Of a stretch of DNA of 64,000 bases, positions 17,958-31,689 are shown in pieces. Each line of letters opens with the position of its first letter. Within the stretch, counting starts at the first letter, position 1. Under the pieces are notes generated by a model. The model saw only the letters and a list, made by a program, of their open reading frames with translations. It did not search any database and was not told where the DNA came from. This stretch comes from Chloroflexota bacterium (GTDB taxonomy: Bacteria; Chloroflexota; Dehalococcoidia; Lucifugimonadales; QGNO01): the NCBI GenBank assembly GCA_003228195.2, contig QGNO01000004.1:29452-93451 (forward strand). Reading direction: 5' to 3'. The position numbers were made by a program, and so were the translations under genes.

Positions 17958-18094
17958 GTCGCCGCCTTATAGCATCAGTCTAAACGTGCCGGATCATCCC
18001 TGCAAGCACAACTTTTGTTAACTATTAAACAAAATAAGTCATTCGTTCCATCTAGACAGGAATATGTTATATCTTCTGTGCGGACTCAAACAAA

Positions 18095-18824
18095 ATGAAT
18101 AACCCAAAGAGGAAACAACATATCTCAAAAACCTTTCATGGAATAATATTTGATCGACTGTATCAAGCATACGGATGTCAGAGATGGTGGGCAGCCGATA
18201 ATTCATGTGAAATAGCGCAGGAGCAATTCTGACACAAAATGTCTGCTGGCAAAACGCAGAACGTGCCATATTTATTCTAAAAAACCAAGAGCTCCTAAGC
18301 GCCTGCGCATTACTGCGCACCCCTGATGACATGGGAGGCTAATCAGGTCATCTGATTATTTCATCGCTAAGGCAAAAAACAAAAACGTTCGCCTCTCATA
18401 TCGTAAACAACCATCAAGGTGAAATGGCGCTTATGTTGCCACAAGATACCTCAACGCTCCGAAAAGACCTTCTCTCCATCCATAAGATAGGAACAGAGAC
18501 GGCAAGCGCAATAATGCTTTACGCAAAAGAGAAACCTGTATTTGTAGTAGATACCTACACAACACGCCTTCTAATTCGAATTGGCATTGTCACAAATTAC
18601 ACAGATTATTCGGATATTCAATCTGTCTTCCACACAAATCTCCCCAAAACACAACCTTGTTAAATGAATTCCATGCCCTTATAAACAATCATGGAAAGAC
18701 AACCTGCAAAAAGAATCGACCGTCATGCTTGGAATGCACACTGATAACTTTGTGCCCAACAGGGCAACACAACAAAGAACAAAACGCCATGAATCAAATT
18801 CAGGAATACGGGTACATTTGCTGA
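18095..18824 (+). pseudogene. Degraded endonuclease III-like (HhH-GPD, 4Fe-4S) protein
   Basis: Fragments in successive frames: IIFDRLYQAYGCQRWWAADNSCEIA / GAILTQNVCWQNAERAIFILKNQELLSACAL / RSSDYFIAKAK / LLSIHKIGTETASAIMLYAKEKPVFVVDTYTTRLLIRIGI / QNTTLLNEFHALINNHGKTTCKKNRPSCLECTLITLC (C-x6-C-x2-C-x5-C cluster). Confidence 0.88.
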
Positions 18825-18912
18825 TCTAATTGATAAAATAATTAGAAAGCAATCTTAAGGCAATGAAACAACGAGCCCCCTCAATCACATAACTTGACTC
18901 CAAAGCACATGC

Positions 18913-19210
18913 TTAGAAACTAGTAAAAAGGTCAATGTCGGGAAGAAGGATCGGGGTAGGCCTAGCAGTAGGTATTGGCGTTGGAGTAACAGACGACACA
19001 GACTTAGGAGTGGGAGTTGCTGTCGACATTAACTCAGATCTAGGTATCAACACCGGCTTAGCCGTCGCAGCTGGAGTAGCAATAACTACCAGTTCGGTCA
19101 TAGGAACAGAAGAGGATCTGTAGTACTATCCCAGCCCCCACAAGCTACCGTAATTGTCCAGTTATTAGAATGAAAATAGGTTTTCCCCACCCAGCCCATA
19201 ACAACTTCAT
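18913..19210 (-). pseudogene. Degraded small lipoprotein with Thr/Pro-rich linker
   Basis: MKLLWAGWGKPIFILITGQL [fs] VACGGWDSTT [fs] SSSVPMTELVVIATPAATAKPVLIPRSELMSTATPTPKSVSSVTPTPIPTARPTPILLPDIDLFTSF; signal peptide/lipobox-like start, ATG overlaps the end of the upstream gene. Confidence 0.55.
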
Positions 19211-19213
19211 CGC

Positions 19214-20317
19214 TTAACGTTTCCTAGATTTTGTAATTCCTTTCAAGTTTTCTTCACGCACCTGTGGTTGTTCCTCTGGTTTTAAAATACCAATAAAAGG
19301 TAAATTACGGTATTTTTGCAGATAGTCCAAACCGTACCCAACCACGAATTCATCTGGTACTTCAAACCCTGTATACTCTACTTGGACATCCACCAATCGC
19401 CTAACCTTTTTGTCAAGTAAGGTACAGACCTTAATATCCGCAGGCTTGAAAGATTCTAAATAGCGCAACAGGTAATTCAAAGTCATACCAGTATCTACTA
19501 TGTCTTCAATCAATAGTACTCGCCTTCCCTCTATAGCAACGTCTGGTCCTTTAGTGATCTCAACTGTGCCGTCCCGCGTTCTTAAACCTTCAGCACTTTC
19601 TCCGTAATAGGATACAGACATAAAGTCCATTATGATTGGAAGATCAACTTCCCTAATCAAGTCGGCCATGAAACAAAAAACACCACTAAGAACGCCCAAG
19701 AATATAGGTTCATCGTTTTTGTAATCTTTGGTAATTATCTTGCCCAGGTGCTTTACTCGACGATCTATTTCAGGTTTAGTAAAAAGCACTTTATCTATTG
19801 CAGGAATAGTTTCTTGCACTAATGGACCAAAGCCATATTTTGCCAACAACCTGTATATATCACGTCGGTAAAGAAGTTTGATATTGACGTCGGGATACAA
19901 CTCCTGAATTTGGCGCATCTTCCTATTTTTTACTGTAACCAAATTTTGTTTGAGAGTGGTCAATTCAACATACAAGTCGAACTCAGGTAAATAGAAATCG
20001 GGAGTGAACATTTGTAACACCCGATCCCCCTCCCATTTCAAAGGGAACGATCTCGGCTCATAAAGCCATTTAACTCCGTAAAAATCCAACAGATTCGTGA
20101 ATTCATCCTCGCTTGGATGAGCAAACGGCCGATGAGTACTAGGGACATTGTAGTGCGCCATCGGAGTAGCAACGGATATGGCAGTAGCTCTTTTAACACG
20201 CCTGCGGTTGCGTCTAGTCGAACTACTCGTATCAAAACCTCGTTTGGTCCCTTCGCTATTAGTGTCTTCTAACGAAGGTTCGAACCTATCTTCTCGATTA
20301 TCTCTATTCAAAACCAC
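19214..20317 (-). CDS. Hypoxanthine-type phosphoribosyltransferase with N-terminal PD-(D/E)XK-like domain
   Basis: C-terminal half: VLLIEDIVDTGMTLNYLLRYLE (PRPP loop), LDKKVRR, PDEFVVGYGLDYLQKYRNLPFIGIL. N-terminal ~165 aa: EDEFTNLLDFYGVKWLYEP...FTPDFYLPEFDLYVELTTLK. Confidence 0.88.
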   Translation of the reverse strand: MVLNRDNREDRFEPSLEDTNSEGTKRGFDTSSSTRRNRRRVKRATAISVATPMAHYNVPSTHRPFAHPSEDEFTNLLDFYGVKWLYEPRSFPLKWEGDRVLQMFTPDFYLPEFDLYVELTTLKQNLVTVKNRKMRQIQELYPDVNIKLLYRRDIYRLLAKYGFGPLVQETIPAIDKVLFTKPEIDRRVKHLGKIITKDYKNDEPIFLGVLSGVFCFMADLIREVDLPIIMDFMSVSYYGESAEGLRTRDGTVEITKGPDVAIEGRRVLLIEDIVDTGMTLNYLLRYLESFKPADIKVCTLLDKKVRRLVDVQVEYTGFEVPDEFVVGYGLDYLQKYRNLPFIGILKPEEQPQVREENLKGITKSRKR

Positions 20318-20347: not shown

Positions 20348-23300
20348 CTAAGTGCCATGTAAATATTTACTAACAGGAAGCACATTATAAGAGTCTTCCC
20401 TAATCAAACTATCAACAGCAGCTCTAGCAGTGTCTAATGAAGTAAAACATGGTATTCGATTCTCAACAGCAGACCGGCGTATTTCGTACCCATCTCTAAG
20501 TATCGAAGCAGACCCAGTCACTGTATTAATCACTGCCTGAACTTTCCCATCTTCAATGACATCAAGCACGTTAGGATGACCTAGTCCAAGCTTTTTAGCT
20601 ACAAGAGGCACTTCTAGTCCTAGGGCTATAATCATTGCTGCGGTACCTTCAGTAGCGTACAAATCGCATCCAGATTTGGCAAGCGCATGAAGTAAATCAA
20701 CCGCTTCCGGTTTATCCTTATCAGAAATACTGAGTAGAATAGGATACCCACGACTTAGATGAAGCCCACTGGCCAAAAGAGCCTTAGCTAATGCAGGGGT
20801 AAATTCACGATCTAGTCCCATAACTTCGCCTGTCGACTTCATTTCAGGGCCCAGATATGTATCGACGCCAGCCAATTTAGACATTGAGAACACTGGTGCT
20901 TTCACTCCAACCAAATCTGATCGCTTCCACAAGCCACCGCTATACCCCTGTTCTTTCAAGGTCTTGCCAAGCACTATCTTAGTAGCGATATTTACCATTG
21001 GGACCCCGGTAACTTTTGAAAGAAATGGCACCGTACGACTGGACCTAGGGTTTGCCTCAATAACGTAAACTGTCGAGCCATCATAAACATGATCCTGGAA
21101 GTTTTCAGGATCCCTATATGGACTAGACCCAGTAATGACATATTGAATATTAATCAAACCTTTGATTTCTAGTCCCAAAGCTATTCTTTTTGTATAGTCC
21201 TCAAGTGTCTGGACTTCTGCCGTTGTCAGGGTAAGACCAGGATATATAGCCATGGAGTCACCACTATGAACACCCGAACGTTCAACATGCTCCATGATCC
21301 CAGGAATCAATACCTCCGTCCCATCACATATCGCATCGACCTCCACTTCTCGACCTTCGAGATACTTGTCTATTAAAATCGACTTGCCCTCCACTATCTC
21401 CACTGCATTAGCGAGATAACCAACCAACTCCGAGGCATTCTGGACAATTTCCATCGCTCGACCGCCCAGGACATAACTCGGCCTCACCAAAACCGGATAA
21501 CCAATGCGTTGTGCGACGTTCAGTCCTTCCTCGACATTTGTAACCGCCGCCCCAGGAGGTTGAGGAATCCCCTGCCTTGATAAGAAATTCTCGAATTTGC
21601 GTCTGTCCGCTGCTATATCTATGGCCTGTGCGGAGGATCCCAAAATCGGCATTCCAGCGCGTGCAAGGATCTGGGATAAATTGATAGCCGTTTGCCCACC
21701 AAATTGGACTACCGAAGGAGTGAATTCAATAGTGCCGGACGAATCTTCTGTACATTCATTATCTAGAATATCCAAAATGCTTTCTTCATCTAAGGGCTCA
21801 AAATAAAGCCTGTCACTCGTATCAAAATCGGTGGAAACAGTTTCCGGGTTTGAATTGACTATAATGCTGGCGGTGTTCTCCTCCTGCAAAGCCCAAGCAG
21901 CATGCACGCTACAGTAGTCAAATTCAATTCCTTGTCCTATACGAATCGGCCCACTGCCAATAACTAACGCCTTACGACCGCTTAACGGCAATGCTTCATT
22001 CTCCACTTCGTAAGTACTATAAAAATATGGTGTCTTTGCTTCAAATTCGGCCGCACAAGTATCAACCATCTTGTAAACCGGGCCAATAGCCCACTCTCGC
22101 CTCAATGCCCTTACCTGATCAGGTAATCGATCAGCCAATGTTCCGATATATTCATCGGAAAAACCCAGCCGCTTCGCAGTATTCATTAATTTGGGGGTCA
22201 GTGATTCAGCAAGCAATCTACGCTCCATCTCTACAATCCTCTGTAATCCTGCAAGAAACCACGGATCTATCCCCGTAGTGGCACTGAGATCTTGCAGTGA
22301 AACGGATCGCCGGAGTGCAGTCATGAGAACCCAAAGCCGTGTATCCCTAGGCTCCAAGGGCAAATCATCAATTGACTTACTATTACCATCTCGCCAAGAC
22401 TTATCCTCCCAAAGCAAATTTTTTGCAGGCTGCTCCAAGGATCGTACGGCCTTTTGAAGCGCAGCTTCAAAAGTTCTATCTATCCCCATGACTTCCCCTG
22501 TGGCTTTCATTTGAACTCCTAAATTGCGTTCACCAGCAGGAAACTTATCAAAAGGCCACCTGGGAATTTTCACAACACAGTAATCGATTGTGGGTTCAAA
22601 AGCAGCCCCAGTCTTACCTGTGACCTTGTTGGATATCTCGTCCAATCGTTTACCCAAAGCAATTTTGGCAGCAACACGAGCTATAGGATAACCTGTGGCC
22701 TTACTCGCAAGGGCCGAGCTCCTACTAACCCTAGGATTAACTTCTATTACATAGTAGGCTGAAGAGGGTTTCCTCCCACCCGAATATTCGTGCGGGGCAG
22801 CCATTGGGTGAGGTGCAAGTGCAAACTGGACGTTGCAGCCACCTTCAACACCCAGCTCCCTGATTATTCGAAATGAGGCACTACGAAGCATTTGATAATC
22901 TTTATCAGATAGAGTTTGAGTCGGAGCAGTAACTATGCTGTCTCCAGTATGAACACCCATTGGATCAAGGTTTTCCATCGCACAAACCATGACGCAGTTA
23001 TCTCCACCATCTCTCATTATCTCGTATTCGACTTCTTTCCATCCCAGTAAATACTTTTCCAGCAATATCTGTTGAATAGGGCTTGCCTGCAACCCAGTGC
23101 TCACAACTCCATCGAGGTATTCAGGGCTAGACACCACTCCTCCACCAGTACCTCCCAATGTGTAAGCGGGTCGTACCACCAATGGAAATCCCATCCTCTG
23201 AGCACACGCTCTCGCTTCCTCTAGAGAGGTCACAGTCTCGCTCTCTGGCACAGGCTCACCTAGATCTATAAGCAATTGCCTAAACATCGACCTGTCTTCA

Positions 23301-23695
23301 GCTTTCTTGATAGTGTCTAGTTGCGTCCCAAGTAATCTGACTCCGTATTTTTCCAAAATACCTGCGTCGGCAACTTCCACGGCCAGATTTAATCCGGTCT
23401 GTCCACCCAAAGTAGGCAGTAATCCCTGTGGTCTTTCTGCCCGAATGATTCTCTCGATGACCTCTACAGTTAGCGGTTCAATATACACAACATCAGCTAT
23501 TCCTTGGTCGGTCATTATCGTCGCAGGATTCGAATTTACTAATATCGTAGTAATGCCTTCTTCCCTTAAAGACCTGCACGCTTGCGACCCAGCATAGTCA
23601 AACTCAGCAGCCTGACCAATGACAATTGGGCCCGATCCAATTATTAGCACCTTTTTGATTTCGTCAGAAATTTTAACCAATTTAATTCCTATCAT
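20348..23695 (-). CDS. carB: Carbamoyl-phosphate synthase large subunit
   Basis: Full-length duplicated ATP-grasp architecture (KVLIIGSGPIVIGQAAEFDYAGSQA..., KALVIGSGPIRIGQGIEFDYCSVHA...). Confidence 0.99.
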   Translation of the reverse strand: MIGIKLVKISDEIKKVLIIGSGPIVIGQAAEFDYAGSQACRSLREEGITTILVNSNPATIMTDQGIADVVYIEPLTVEVIERIIRAERPQGLLPTLGGQTGLNLAVEVADAGILEKYGVRLLGTQLDTIKKAEDRSMFRQLLIDLGEPVPESETVTSLEEARACAQRMGFPLVVRPAYTLGGTGGGVVSSPEYLDGVVSTGLQASPIQQILLEKYLLGWKEVEYEIMRDGGDNCVMVCAMENLDPMGVHTGDSIVTAPTQTLSDKDYQMLRSASFRIIRELGVEGGCNVQFALAPHPMAAPHEYSGGRKPSSAYYVIEVNPRVSRSSALASKATGYPIARVAAKIALGKRLDEISNKVTGKTGAAFEPTIDYCVVKIPRWPFDKFPAGERNLGVQMKATGEVMGIDRTFEAALQKAVRSLEQPAKNLLWEDKSWRDGNSKSIDDLPLEPRDTRLWVLMTALRRSVSLQDLSATTGIDPWFLAGLQRIVEMERRLLAESLTPKLMNTAKRLGFSDEYIGTLADRLPDQVRALRREWAIGPVYKMVDTCAAEFEAKTPYFYSTYEVENEALPLSGRKALVIGSGPIRIGQGIEFDYCSVHAAWALQEENTASIIVNSNPETVSTDFDTSDRLYFEPLDEESILDILDNECTEDSSGTIEFTPSVVQFGGQTAINLSQILARAGMPILGSSAQAIDIAADRRKFENFLSRQGIPQPPGAAVTNVEEGLNVAQRIGYPVLVRPSYVLGGRAMEIVQNASELVGYLANAVEIVEGKSILIDKYLEGREVEVDAICDGTEVLIPGIMEHVERSGVHSGDSMAIYPGLTLTTAEVQTLEDYTKRIALGLEIKGLINIQYVITGSSPYRDPENFQDHVYDGSTVYVIEANPRSSRTVPFLSKVTGVPMVNIATKIVLGKTLKEQGYSGGLWKRSDLVGVKAPVFSMSKLAGVDTYLGPEMKSTGEVMGLDREFTPALAKALLASGLHLSRGYPILLSISDKDKPEAVDLLHALAKSGCDLYATEGTAAMIIALGLEVPLVAKKLGLGHPNVLDVIEDGKVQAVINTVTGSASILRDGYEIRRSAVENRIPCFTSLDTARAAVDSLIREDSYNVLPVSKYLHGT

Positions 23696-23808
23696 GACCA
23701 AAGAAAGATGACGATCACCAATTCAACATCCAAGAAAAAATTTAGTTCGGCACGAACTATCTTAACTTTCAGTCATTCTTAAGCCTAAAAACAGTAGACC
23801 AAATACTA

Positions 23809-24417
23809 CTAAGCCTTCATAAGGAAGAGACTGCCCCAAGCTGCGATAAGCAACCAAGGCATCACACTCCAAACAAGTCGCTCAGACATTAACCTGGGCA
23901 TCCAAGGTTTACCTTCCGAACTCAATCCGAAATCCCTGAGACCCTGTTCCAATTCATTGTCACCCTCAGCGAGCTGTCTCGCGACCGTAGTACCTCGATT
24001 TTCAAATTTACGGCTCTGCCTGAGAAAAGTGAGATAGAGACTAGATCTCATACCCAGTTCACGCTCTATTTCGTTGCGTCGATACTCAGCAACTCTCTGC
24101 GCCGCAAACATTCGCCTGATCAGCAGCCACCAACCAAACGTTATCAGCGAGCAAATTCCACCTATGAGTGCCAGCATTCTCGAAGTTTCTTCAATTCCTG
24201 ATTGCATCATAGTGGCCTGAAAGGTTATACCTATCATGCTCAGTCCAACTACTACCATCCCACTTACCCAAGTTCGCGCATGCAACGCTGCCCAATATGC
24301 ATCGAGAAGCTCATACTCTACTAGCAACACTTGCCAACGATTTCGCGGCGGTACTTTCATAGCAACTTGTTCCGCCGGCATCGGATCATCTCCCAACTGA
24401 CGTGGTTCTCTCATCAC
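23809..24417 (-). CDS. Uncharacterised ~202-aa membrane protein inside the pyr operon
   Basis: Two N-terminal TM segments, charged central region, C-terminal TM; start overlaps carA stop by 4 nt. Confidence 0.85.
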   Translation of the reverse strand: MMREPRQLGDDPMPAEQVAMKVPPRNRWQVLLVEYELLDAYWAALHARTWVSGMVVVGLSMIGITFQATMMQSGIEETSRMLALIGGICSLITFGWWLLIRRMFAAQRVAEYRRNEIERELGMRSSLYLTFLRQSRKFENRGTTVARQLAEGDNELEQGLRDFGLSSEGKPWMPRLMSERLVWSVMPWLLIAAWGSLFLMKA

Positions 24418-25511
24418 TTATTCACTCCTTTAACCAACGACAAAAAACTGTCGAAAAGATAGTCATTATCCCAAGGCCCAGGGGCAGCCTCAGAATGAAA
24501 TTGTATTCCCATTAACGGGAAATCGTTATGCCTAATACCTTCAACCGTTCCGTCATTAAGATTTACATGGCTAACCTCCAATCCAGATGGCAATGTGTCC
24601 CCATCTACAGCAAATCCGTGATTTTGGGACGTAATATAAGTACGGCCTGTAGAAAAGTCCTTAACTGGATGATTACCTCCGTGATGCCCAAACTTCAATT
24701 TATATGTATTAGCACCCAACGCTCTTGCAATAAGTTGATGCCCCAAACATATCCCCATCAAAGGAACCTTACCGATCATTTCTTTCAAAGCATCAATAGC
24801 ATAACCCAAAAGAGCAGGGTCTCCAGGCCCAGGTGAAAATACTACCCCTGACGGATCCAAGTCCATGATAGTCTGAAAACTGCTCGTGGCCGGCACTACA
24901 GTAACGCGACAACCTCTTATTTCGAGGCTTCGCAAAATGTTGTATTTCACACCACAATCGGCAACTACAATATGCAAGCCCCCATTTGTATCTTCGGGAT
25001 TTAATCCCCAGTCGTAAGTTTGTTGAGTAGTTACAGAAGCCACGTGATCCAAATCCACGTAGCGCTTTGCACTCCGTAAGTGCTCCAGTGCCTGATCTCC
25101 GCTTAGTTCCGAGGTTATGCACCCCATCATTGCGCCCTGTGACCTTATACGCCGGGTGACTGATCTTGTGTCCACTTCACTGATGCCTTTAACGCCCTGT
25201 TTCCCTAAATATTCATTCAATCCAACGTCACTCAAATGATGACTCGGGTATTGACAGCTCTGCCGAACTACATATCCGGCAACCTGAATACGTTCGGATT
25301 CAACGTTGATTTCATTACAACCGTAATTCCCAATCAACGGATAGGTTGCCACAACGATTTGACCCGCATACGAAGGGTCAGTAAGAATTTCCTGATAGCC
25401 CGTCATTGATGTATTAAACACAACCTCTCCGACAGCGGTTCCCTCAGTTCCCATTGATTCACCTTGGTAAACTGACCCGTCTTCTAGAACTAGAATGGAA
25501 GCACTACTCAT
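24414..25511 (-). CDS. carA: Carbamoyl-phosphate synthase small subunit
   Basis: VFNTSMTGYQEILTDPSYAGQIVVATYPLIGNYG; GICLGHQLIARALGA; GIQFHSEAAPGP. Confidence 0.99.
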   Translation of the reverse strand: MSSASILVLEDGSVYQGESMGTEGTAVGEVVFNTSMTGYQEILTDPSYAGQIVVATYPLIGNYGCNEINVESERIQVAGYVVRQSCQYPSHHLSDVGLNEYLGKQGVKGISEVDTRSVTRRIRSQGAMMGCITSELSGDQALEHLRSAKRYVDLDHVASVTTQQTYDWGLNPEDTNGGLHIVVADCGVKYNILRSLEIRGCRVTVVPATSSFQTIMDLDPSGVVFSPGPGDPALLGYAIDALKEMIGKVPLMGICLGHQLIARALGANTYKLKFGHHGGNHPVKDFSTGRTYITSQNHGFAVDGDTLPSGLEVSHVNLNDGTVEGIRHNDFPLMGIQFHSEAAPGPWDNDYLFDSFLSLVKGVNK

Positions 25512-26864
25512 CCAGTTTCTCCTGTTCGTATACTAAGTTCCCTCCCACAAAAGCCATAACAACCTTACCCTTCAATCGAACTCCTTCAATTGGAGTGTTC
25601 TTTCCCTTGGAATTGAACTCCTCACTTGAGACTATCCAATCTTTGTTAGGATCGAAAACGACAATATCTGCCGTTGTCCCTTTTCTCAATGTAGCTAAAT
25701 CCGAATATGCATCTCCAAGTACTACAAGGGGTCCGACTGTCAACTTTGAAACAAGCGTCATTAGGTCAATTCGGTCATCGTGAACCAAGGTCATCAGCAA
25801 TCCAAAAGCCGTTTCTAACCCACTGAATCCATACGCAGCATCATCATAAGTGACCAACTTATCTATAACCGTTTGCGGTGCATGATCTGTAGCAATCACA
25901 TCTATAACCCCTTCGTTTAGTCCGGCTATGAGTGCTTCCACATCTTCACGGGATCTCAAAGGAGGGTTTACTTTAGTGAATGTGTCGTACGCCTCTAAAC
26001 CCAATGGCCCGTTTATAGGTCCATCTTGGTCATGCCCCAAAACCCACCTCTCATCTAGCGTTAAATGGTGCGGAGTAACCTCTGCCGTAACGTTAGCCCC
26101 TCTTTGTTTCGCCAATCGAATTAGATCGACAGAACCAGAGGTAGTAATATGCGCCACGTGTAACCGACCGCCAGTCAATTCGGCGAGTGCTATATCTCGA
26201 GCAATTACTGACTCCTCCGCAACGGACGGCCAACCTCTCAACCCTGTGCGATTAGAAATCCATCCTTCGTTCACAGGAGAACCTTGCGACAACTCTAAAT
26301 CTTCAGAATGTTGTATGACAGGCAAGGCAAGGCCACTGGAATACGCTAGGGCCTGTCGCATCAAATGTGAATCTGCCACCGGCTTCCCGTCGTCACTGAA
26401 TCCGACGGCGCCCGATTGCGCCATTTCCCAAAGCTCGGCCAGTTGTTTCCCTTCGCTACCTTTGGTAACACATCCTATAGGTAGTACCCTTGCTTTTCCG
26501 GCCAAGGCCGCTTTCTGAATCACATATTCAATCGTGACAGCGTTATCCATCGGCGGATTAGTATTAGGCATAGCGCATATCGTAGTGAACCCACCGTTGA
26601 CCGCAGCAGCAACCCCGGTACTTATAGTCTCCTTATCTTCATATCCAGGCTCTCGCAAATGTGTGTGCAAATCAATAAATCCTGGGCACACTACTAAGCC
26701 ATCCCCATTCAATAGTCTGCATCTCTCAGGAATATCCCCGTCCCTCAACGGTGCACCCACATGCTTTATTAAGCCTTCATCTACCAAGATGTCGCCAAAC
26801 TCATCCATCCCGGTGATCACATCTAACAGGCGAGCGTTCTTTATAAGAAAATGACCCAACTTAG

Positions 26865-26868
<4 letters not shown>
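25504..26868 (-). CDS. pyrC: Dihydroorotase
   Basis: VCPGFIDLHTHLREPGYEDKETI; HVAHITT; VIATDHAPQ. Confidence 0.97.
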
Positions 26869-28504
<1,636 letters not shown>

Positions 28505-28510
28505 TTAGAC

Positions 28511-28541
28511 CCTTACCAGCCTCACAGGACTGATTTCAAGG
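28511..28541 (-). promoter_or_regulatory. PyrR-binding anti-antiterminator loop
   Basis: Minus strand CCTTGAAATCAGTCCTGTGAGGCTGGTAAGG; contains AGTCCTGTGAGGCT (28531-28518), a full match to the PyrR-binding consensus ARUCCNGNGAGGYU. Confidence 0.9.
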
Positions 28542-28652
28542 TTACGTACTCGACAACTAATCATTCATCGAGTACGACTAGAGTATAGCATTCAATCGGA
28601 CCTAGTAGCAATCAAATAAATCGACCTTAAACGCACTTCCAGTGACAATAAA

Positions 28653-28709: not shown

Positions 28710-30158
28710 TTATTTAATCAATGATTCCACGCCATACGCTTTCGGGGTACTCCTGCGTGCAACACCCGTCTTAACCGCTGCCTCAGCCACAGCCTTTGCC
28801 ACCGAAACGGCCACGTTTCGATCAAATACGTTGGGAATTATATATTCTTCGTTGAGTTGGCTATCTGGAACGCTATTAGCAATAGCTTTAGCAGCAGCCA
28901 ACTTCATTTCGGCATTAACTCTAGTGGCCCTGACATCTAGCATTCCTCTAAAAAATCCCGGGAAACATAGCGCATTATTAACCTGGTTTGGATAATCAGA
29001 GCGCCCGGTTGCCATCACTTTGACATACTCAGCAGCCTCTTCAGGGTAAATCTCCGGATCTGGGTTTGCCATTGCAAAAACTATTGCATCTTTATTCATG
29101 GCCTTGACGTGGTCAACCGTAATAACGCCAGGTCCCGACAATCCTATAAATAAATCCGCACCCGTCATCGCATCCATCAATGTGCCTTTGAAGTTATCAG
29201 GGTTGGTATTCTCCGCAAACCACTTCTTAGATTCGTTGTCACCGTAATCTCGATCCCTGTGAAGAACTCCTTGCCTATCGGCACCAACAACATCTAGCAA
29301 CCCAGCGTCCATGAGCATTCGAGTAGTGGCCATCCCACCCGCTCCAACGCCAACAACCACGGCCTTCATATTCTCGATTTTTTTTCCAGTAACCTTTACA
29401 GCATTGAGGAAAGCAGCAGTGCTAGTCACCGCTGTGCCATGCTGATCGTCATGGAATACCGGTATGTCCAATTTTTCTTGCAACCTCTCTTCTATGTAGA
29501 AACAGCGTGGTGCGGAAATATCCTCAAGATTTATTCCGCCAAATCCCACAGCGAAGTTTTCAATAGCCTCGACAATTTCATCTTGATCCTTGGTAGCCAG
29601 GCAAATCGGCCAAGCGTCAACACCCCCCAATTCCTTAAATAGCATGGCCTTGCCTTCCATTACAGGCATTGCAGCAGCTGGGCCAATATCACCTAGACCC
29701 AAAACAGCAGTGCCATCTGAGACAACAGCGACAGTATTTCCTTTGGCTGTTAAATTCCAACTCGATTCCGGATCGTCATGAATCGCCATACAAACTCGTG
29801 CGACTCCAGGCGTATAAGCCATAGACAGGTCATTCCGCGTTCTTACTGGACTCTTGGATCGCATCTCTATCTTTCCGTTAAGGTGCAAAAGAAAAGTGGG
29901 ATCAGAAACGCTAACGACATTTACGCCCGGAAGCTTCTTGAGCTTGGCAACCATGTCCTGGCCGTGAGCGACATCACTAGCGTTAATAGTGAGATCTCGA
30001 ATTACCTTATCCTGCGAAGATTGGACCAAATCAAGGGCCGATATGTCTCCGCCCATTTCACCGATAGCTGTAGTAATAGACCCGAGTTGGCCCGGCTGAT
30101 TGGGATATTCCGCCCTAATAGTAACTCCATATGCGATAGCAGGGTATCTTACAGACAT
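28710..30158 (-). CDS. Malic enzyme with N-terminal ACT domain (copy 1)
   Basis: N-terminal ACT-like [22 protein letters not shown]; malic enzyme core [34 protein letters not shown]. Confidence 0.95.
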
Positions 30159-30240
30159 TAAAATGACTCCTTATTAGCGAAGATCAATGATACACCACAG
30201 CCAGCTAAAGGGATACAGCTTCAAAGATTCTAGTCGTCAA

Positions 30241-31689
30241 TCATGCAGGCAATCCTGCAAATTCAGTGGTCTTGCTCCTCTTTATAGGCGCCATTCCAGT
30301 CGCGCGAGCAGCTTTTGCCACCGCATTTGCAACGCCCCTAACAACAGACCTGTCGAAAACGCTTGGGACAATGTATTCCTCATTGAGATGCCTGCGTGGC
30401 ACAGCGCTAGCTATAGCCCAAGCCGCCGCCATTTTCATCTCATCATTGACGCCTTTAGACCTAGAATCAAGGATTCCACGGAATACACCTGGAAAAGCCA
30501 AAACATTATTTATCTGATTAGGATAATCCGATCTGCCAGTAGCGATCACCTTCACATACGGCACAGCGCTTTCGGGATTTATTTCGGGATCAGGATTAGC
30601 CATCGCAAAAACTATCGAATTCTTCGCCATAACCTTTAGATGATCAATACTAAGTACATTGGGACCAGAAAGCCCTATAAAAACATCGGCATTGTTCATA
30701 GCACCCTTTAGGTCACCACGGAAGTTATCAATGTTCCCCTGTTCTGCAAACCATGTTTTGCCAGAATGTCCCGCCAAATCAATTCCAGAGTGCAAAATGC
30801 CCTCTCTGTCGTACCCAATGATGCTAGATACGCCTGCCTGCTTAATCAGTTTGGCCGTTGCTAAACCTGCGGCACCCGCACCAGATATCACTACATTAAT
30901 CTGATCTATCTTTTTTCCAACAACTTCTAAAGCGTTATATAAGGCTCCCAAGACAACTATTGCCGTTCCATGTTGATCATCATGAAATACCGGTATGTCC
31001 AATTCTTCTCTAAGTCTTTCCTCAATGTAAAAACAGTTTGGCGCAGCGATATCTTCAAGATTAATTCCGCCAAACCCAGGGGAAATATGCTTAACTATTT
31101 GGATTATTTTCTCGGGATCACTGGTATTCAAACAGATTGGCCATGAGTTAACGCCTGCCAGTTCTTTGAATAACAGCGCCTTACCCTCCATAACAGGCAA
31201 GGCTGCTGCAGGACCTATGTTTCCTAATCCCAAAACTGCTGTGCCGTCGGTTACAACCGCCACAGTGTTGGATTTAGAAGTAAGCGACCACACTGCCGAC
31301 GGGTCTTCATGTATAGCCATACTTACTCTAGCCACTCCAGGTGTATATGCCAACGAGAGATCGTTTCGCGTTCTAATCGGAATTTTCGAAACCATGTTGA
31401 TCTTGCCACCAAGATGCAACAGGAAAGTTGGATCAGATACGCTTCTGACGGACACACCATTAAGAACACCTACCGTACTTACTATCTCAGCACCATGATC
31501 GACATCACGTGCATTGACTGTGATGTCCCTAATCATGGTGCCAGAGTTAATAGATACGATATCTATAGCACCTATGTCACCACCAACCATACCAATAGCA
31601 GTAGTGATAACACCCAAATGGCCAGGGATGTTTTTATAGGCTACGCGTAGTGTGACACTGTAGGCAACCGCTGGATAACGATTAGTCAT
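30241..31689 (-). CDS. Malic enzyme with N-terminal ACT domain (copy 2)
   Basis: Same length and architecture as neighbour; [43 protein letters not shown]. Confidence 0.95.
   Translation of the reverse strand: MTNRYPAVAYSVTLRVAYKNIPGHLGVITTAIGMVGGDIGAIDIVSINSGTMIRDITVNARDVDHGAEIVSTVGVLNGVSVRSVSDPTFLLHLGGKINMVSKIPIRTRNDLSLAYTPGVARVSMAIHEDPSAVWSLTSKSNTVAVVTDGTAVLGLGNIGPAAALPVMEGKALLFKELAGVNSWPICLNTSDPEKIIQIVKHISPGFGGINLEDIAAPNCFYIEERLREELDIPVFHDDQHGTAIVVLGALYNALEVVGKKIDQINVVISGAGAAGLATAKLIKQAGVSSIIGYDREGILHSGIDLAGHSGKTWFAEQGNIDNFRGDLKGAMNNADVFIGLSGPNVLSIDHLKVMAKNSIVFAMANPDPEINPESAVPYVKVIATGRSDYPNQINNVLAFPGVFRGILDSRSKGVNDEMKMAAAWAIASAVPRRHLNEEYIVPSVFDRSVVRGVANAVAKAARATGMAPIKRSKTTEFAGLPA

Follow-up and report, generated by a model that had tools for sequence, protein, structure and literature searches.

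The window, by which we mean the whole 64,000-nucleotide stretch of DNA that was analysed, carries on its minus strand a pyrimidine operon with the gene order pyrR-pyrB-pyrC-carA-orf-carB, followed by a gene encoding a protein in which a nuclease-like domain is fused to a hypoxanthine phosphoribosyltransferase (HPRT):

28437..28545 (-): PyrR-binding RNA leader (Rfam RF00515, 58.8 bits, cut-off 54)
24414..28501 (-): carA, pyrC, pyrB and pyrR, the rest of the pyrimidine operon, with overlapping ends
23809-24417 (-): gene for a 202-aa probable membrane protein, function unassigned, between carA and carB and overlapping carA by 4 nt
20348..23701 (-): carB (by sequence), directly upstream in the same operon, with a gap of 30 nt to the fusion gene
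19214..20317 (-): whole fusion protein, 367 aa, GTG start at 20317 and stop at 19214
20126..20317 (-): N-terminal tail, residues 1-64, Arg-rich (TRRNRRRVKR), no known domain
19820..20125 (-): T7-endonuclease-I-like PD-(D/E)XK domain, residues 65-166, predicted by profile, hhalign, AF2 and Foldseek
19283..19789 (-): HPRT domain, residues 177-345 (TIGR01203 2.8e-53; 1r3u 7.3e-56)
19481..19519 (-): PRPP loop VLLIEDIVDTGMT, residues 267-279, intact

The strand and coordinates of the fusion ORF, and the motifs quoted from it in the original prediction, were all confirmed. The true pyrR start probably lies at about 28436, since the PyrR RNA element overlaps the listed one. Neither an intrinsic terminator nor a convincing promoter was found around the fusion gene, and the approximately 1.25 kb between it and pyrF (17958-19213) are without a convincing gene or terminator. 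Elsewhere in the window, two tandem genes (28710-31689, minus strand) encode malic-enzyme-like proteins of 482 aa, each with an N-terminus that is ACT-like by eye.

The C-terminal part, which had been taken for a purine phosphoribosyltransferase with a PRPP loop, is indeed of this type. It obtained 180.1 bits against TIGR01203 and thus passed the equivalog cut-off of 150 bits, and it also matched PF00156 (4.2e-24). The catalytic residues Glu271/Asp272, Asp275, Lys303 and Asp331 are all there, and by these residues and the TIGR01203 score the protein is predicted to be a hypoxanthine/guanine phosphoribosyltransferase. It shares with bacterial HPRTs (e.g. 1r3u) the full domain, the PRPP loop, Lys303, Arg307 and Asp331, whereas it differs from them in belonging to a separate paralogous clade, in its added N-terminal domains and in the loss of the catalytic Asp from some members. 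The HPRT active site is intact in most fused members, that of the window included, so the simplest role of this part is still salvage. Among about 107 fused HPRTs, the catalytic Asp275 is replaced by Asn in six and the PRPP loop is degraded in one (L124). All seven of these proteins keep the nuclease-like motif, therefore HPRT catalysis is not what preserves the N-terminal domain. The presence of this domain is not due to chance either, because the same two-part layout is found in 80 fetched relatives. Moreover, pairs among 61 fused sequences are on average 72% identical in the N-terminal domain and 67% in the HPRT, which makes the former the slower-changing part of the protein. The copy of Thermomicrobium roseum is annotated as a plain 'hypoxanthine phosphoribosyltransferase', and such ordinary annotation conceals a conserved second domain.

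Residues 65-166 had no Pfam match when the whole protein was scanned. When 43 members were scanned singly, 39 of them weakly matched Phage_endo_I (PF05367) below the cut-off, with 1.9e-5 as the best value; the domain of the window reached 18.3 bits, under the gathering cut-off of 29.1, and the PF05367 profile alone gave no match anywhere in the window's own genome, which makes that scan uninformative. By its sequence the domain is related to PF05367 but is not filed as a member. When the PDB was searched with a profile built from 72 diverse members, T7/T3 endonuclease I was the sole match (best 2e-5), and hhalign against three phage enzymes gave a probability of 97.2% (3.8e-11). In addition, a tblastn search of phages with the window's domain led to annotated endonuclease I genes, and the PHROG endonuclease and Holliday-junction-resolvase families matched 71-72 of the 72 members. 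For structural comparison the domain was modelled separately; searches of the PDB with the full-length model were swamped by HPRT matches. In the AF2 model (pLDDT 84) the core is as expected, and the secondary-structure elements follow the order of PD-(D/E)XK enzymes. The top Foldseek match among viral models (BFVD) was 'Endonuclease I' (1.9e-6, TM up to 0.66), and the PDB matches were mainly PD-(D/E)XK nucleases, although weak ones (best 0.004, TM mostly <0.5), with mitoribosome proteins of RAP type among them. Since the profile, hhalign, tblastn, PHROG, AF2 and Foldseek results all point there, the predicted PD-(D/E)XK fold stands, and the nearest characterised relative by sequence and model is T7 endonuclease I. 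The PD-(D/E)XK-like domain of the original prediction is thereby borne out and sharpened, the AF2 core and Foldseek agreeing on a restriction-endonuclease-like fold.

The homology with T7 endonuclease I (PF05367, PDB 1fzr/1m0d/2pfj/3cae) extends over about 90 residues and the same core; the C-terminal region of the phage enzyme has no counterpart in the domain, which is fused to HPRT. Cleavage of four-way junctions and a domain-swapped dimer are the traits of the T7 endonuclease I family, to which the domain is likened by sequence and model. Its putative active site can be set against Glu20, Asp55, Glu65 and Lys67 of the T7 enzyme:

20108..20110 (-): Glu70, motif I, equivalent of T7 Glu20; 98/98 in the family and 84/84 in phage enzymes
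19997..19999 (-): Asp107, motif II, equivalent of T7 Asp55; invariant, 98/98 in the family
19955..19966 (-): ELTT, residues 118-121, with Glu118 (T7 Glu65) and Thr120 at the Lys67 position; Thr in 98/98
19928..19930 (-): Lys130, motif IV helix, candidate relocated catalytic lysine; Lys in 98/98
19919..19921 (-): Lys133, motif IV helix, conserved in the phage enzymes too

Glu70, Asp107 and Glu118 are invariant across the 98 family members and the 84 phage enzymes, and the complete set of invariant or nearly invariant positions in the domain comprises H67, E70, Y86, E87, P106, D107, F108, E118, T120, T121, K130, K133, P142 and D153. Motif III reads E-x-T throughout the family, as first noticed in the window protein, whereas all 84 phage enzymes have E-x-K; at the position of Lys130 the phage enzymes carry Asp (83/84) or Ser (1/84), and a loop is three residues longer than in T7 endonuclease I. 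The earlier suggestion that a lysine of the range LKQNLVTVKNRK could have taken over gains support from the invariance of Thr120 and Lys130 in the family, and this range holds Lys130. Since the family members share an ancestor, as do the phage enzymes, the Lys/Thr and Asp/Lys swap counts as a single correlated change rather than many. The HMMER and hhalign alignments place the phage Lys67 opposite Thr120, whereas in one MAFFT run a gap directly after the Glu brings the phage Lys opposite K/R123, and because of this difference in gap placement the migration is likely but not settled. By its linear position Lys130 is a candidate for the migrated catalytic lysine, although a lysine at a fitting place along the chain need not point into the site. 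A 2007 survey (PMC1913061) lists the same pattern for DUF1626, DUF506 and DUF790, in which the motif III Lys is replaced and positive residues occur in the motif IV helix; in DUF1626 the replacement is Thr and the helix residues were read as a migrated lysine. The likeness to these families is one of active-site pattern, and our domain differs from them in its fusion to HPRT. A phage protein in IMG/VR, 45% identical to the domain, likewise has E-x-T and the helix lysine.

The loss of the motif III lysine often means inactivity and counts against an active nuclease. PyrR is an RNA-binding phosphoribosyltransferase and the Bacillus PurR a DNA-binding repressor with the phosphoribosyltransferase fold, both in nucleotide operons. 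Like them the fusion protein could be a purine-responsive regulator, whose N-terminal domain would be a catalytically dead module for nucleic-acid binding; it would differ in being of the HPRT subfamily and in having a nuclease fold as its putative nucleic-acid part. The absence of the motif III Lys from 98/98 members is what would be seen, and the Arg-rich tail, the location in regulated nucleotide operons and the missing catalytic Asp of some HPRTs also fit. Moreover, restriction-endonuclease-like folds serve in the RNA-binding RAP proteins (PMC8190603), and the RAP-type mitoribosome proteins among the Foldseek matches agree with this, although RAP domain proteins are mostly from eukaryotic organelles and, unlike the fusion, without HPRT. 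Pure binding, however, is not expected to hold three metal-ligand carboxylates invariant in 98/98, and we regard a dead domain as a possible but doubtful explanation.

The Arg clusters of the tail recur in 8 relatives (L001-L007 and L025), and one of them (PRRRRTYSRKPR) also in the relative L105. Most other Dehalococcoidia members have a GAF domain in place of the tail (Pfam GAF/GAF_2, 6e-15 to 2e-9), Arg-rich tails instead of GAF being found in the close relatives of the window protein and in other carB-linked members.

A survey of 399 sampled genomes, all of Chloroflexota, found the N-terminal domain in 145, the 11 weakest matches being other proteins. The fusion, which the original prediction had proposed to look for in this phylum, is widespread there and its HPRTs form one clade; in Dehalococcoidia the domain is fused to HPRT. 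A search of plasmids gave a strong match only in T. roseum. Examination of 56 sampled loci with strong matches showed the domain fused to HPRT in 29 and encoded by a separate gene in 27, and the latter number indicates a function of its own. Eighteen of these separate genes immediately precede hpt in the same orientation, one lies about 1.9 kb from it and eight have no hpt nearby. In the HPRT tree the fused proteins occupy one side of a branch (96/93 support), apart from the canonical HPRTs of the same genomes, and the tree of the N-terminal domain agrees with it save for one long branch. A second HPRT is present in most fusion-bearing genomes, while the genome of the window, which is 90% complete, yielded a single one. 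From this separate supported branch, the existence of the neighbour-gene state and the second HPRT of most genomes it follows that the fused form is a specialised HPRT paralogue, which probably goes back to a single fusion of adjacent genes. Literature searches for a nuclease-HPRT architecture turned up nothing relevant. Judged from the sequences, the architecture is real and conserved, a new combination of known parts with a predicted function.

The frequent pairing with HPRT, fused or as neighbour, would also suit a structural or oligomerisation element, or a binder of small phosphorylated ligands, which merely tunes the HPRT; PMC6783271 describes ppGpp regulation of HPRT as dependent on the oligomeric state. 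We consider this quite improbable, given that the stand-alone copies without hpt nearby and the phage copy retain the same site. As the acidic site is strongly constrained in all kinds of copies, whether fused to HPRT, next to hpt, unlinked or phage-borne, the domain probably has an activity of its own that depends on this site.

Immediately upstream of the fusion gene, at a distance of a few nucleotides, 48 of 80 fusion loci have nrdJ, encoding a B12-dependent ribonucleotide reductase, preceded at most of them by nrdR. The pyr operon was rejected as a general context, since apart from the window's relatives only a few members have it, and nrdR-nrdJ is far commoner. A motif scan for the tilS-hpt-ftsH arrangement likewise found none beside fusion genes. 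Ribonucleotide reductase, CarB or hpt as neighbours suit nucleotide supply, and together with the conserved acidic site, the HPRT active site intact in most members and the HNH/endonuclease-VII-like gene beside the phage protein of the same E-x-T/helix-Lys signature they would agree with an active nuclease for plain turnover or recombination clean-up, the HPRT just recycling purines without any sensing. Nevertheless nucleases yield nucleotides instead of free bases, and HPRT therefore does not come next in such a pathway. In addition, some members have lost HPRT catalysis and the GAF domain suggests regulation, and such a clean-up role seems unlikely to us.

The most economical reading would be that of a nucleotide-responsive protein on structured nucleic acid, and to a fusion protein that responds to nucleotide pools and acts on such nucleic acid, by binding and probably nicking, we give a probability of roughly 40%. 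The HPRT part would bind PRPP and 6-oxopurine nucleotides, most members still making IMP/GMP, and nucleotide supply, through the HPRT and the GAF where present, may control the metal-dependent domain. This domain would bind, and probably nick, DNA or RNA that is branched or structured in some other way, perhaps with help in binding from the Arg-rich tail found in the window's group. The protein might in this manner connect purine salvage and nucleotide pools with the state of nucleic acids in cells that make it together with the products of pyrimidine or ribonucleotide-reductase genes, a link that is consistent with the operon context. The narrower proposal that an HPRT paralogue, as purine-nucleotide sensor, gates an endonuclease-I-type domain with relocated lysine across Chloroflexota is tentative and rather doubtful. 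Control by HPRT cannot be general, because eight stand-alone copies have no HPRT nearby.

The position of the fusion gene in nucleotide-synthesis operons suggests that nucleotide pools and nucleic acids are linked in a way not yet studied, and if the domain acts on nucleic acids this would be a new bacterial coupling of nucleotide supply to nucleic-acid processing. The domain offers a testable prediction on how a catalytic lysine may migrate within a family of nucleases that is well studied, and the fusion also gives a handle on Dehalococcoidia, in which genetics is hard.

Several related arrangements were observed. The phage copy (L147, 2995-3315) is a stand-alone protein of 106 aa and adjoins the HNH/endonuclease-VII-like gene. 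There is an intein-like element (L127, 6250-6555) in a very long ORF carrying a version of the domain with the canonical E-I-K, and three ORFs of 900-1040 aa (L128, L129 and L130) contain an inserted YxPDFYLPxxDxYIEH segment with weak similarity to the domain. The canonical HPRTs of L155 and L156 are located in ORFs of 670-675 aa, which probably represent fusions of TilS with HPRT; their genomes have the nuclease-HPRT fusion as well. At L056 (7075-9327) a second HPRT gene and one for adenine deaminase come after the fusion gene.
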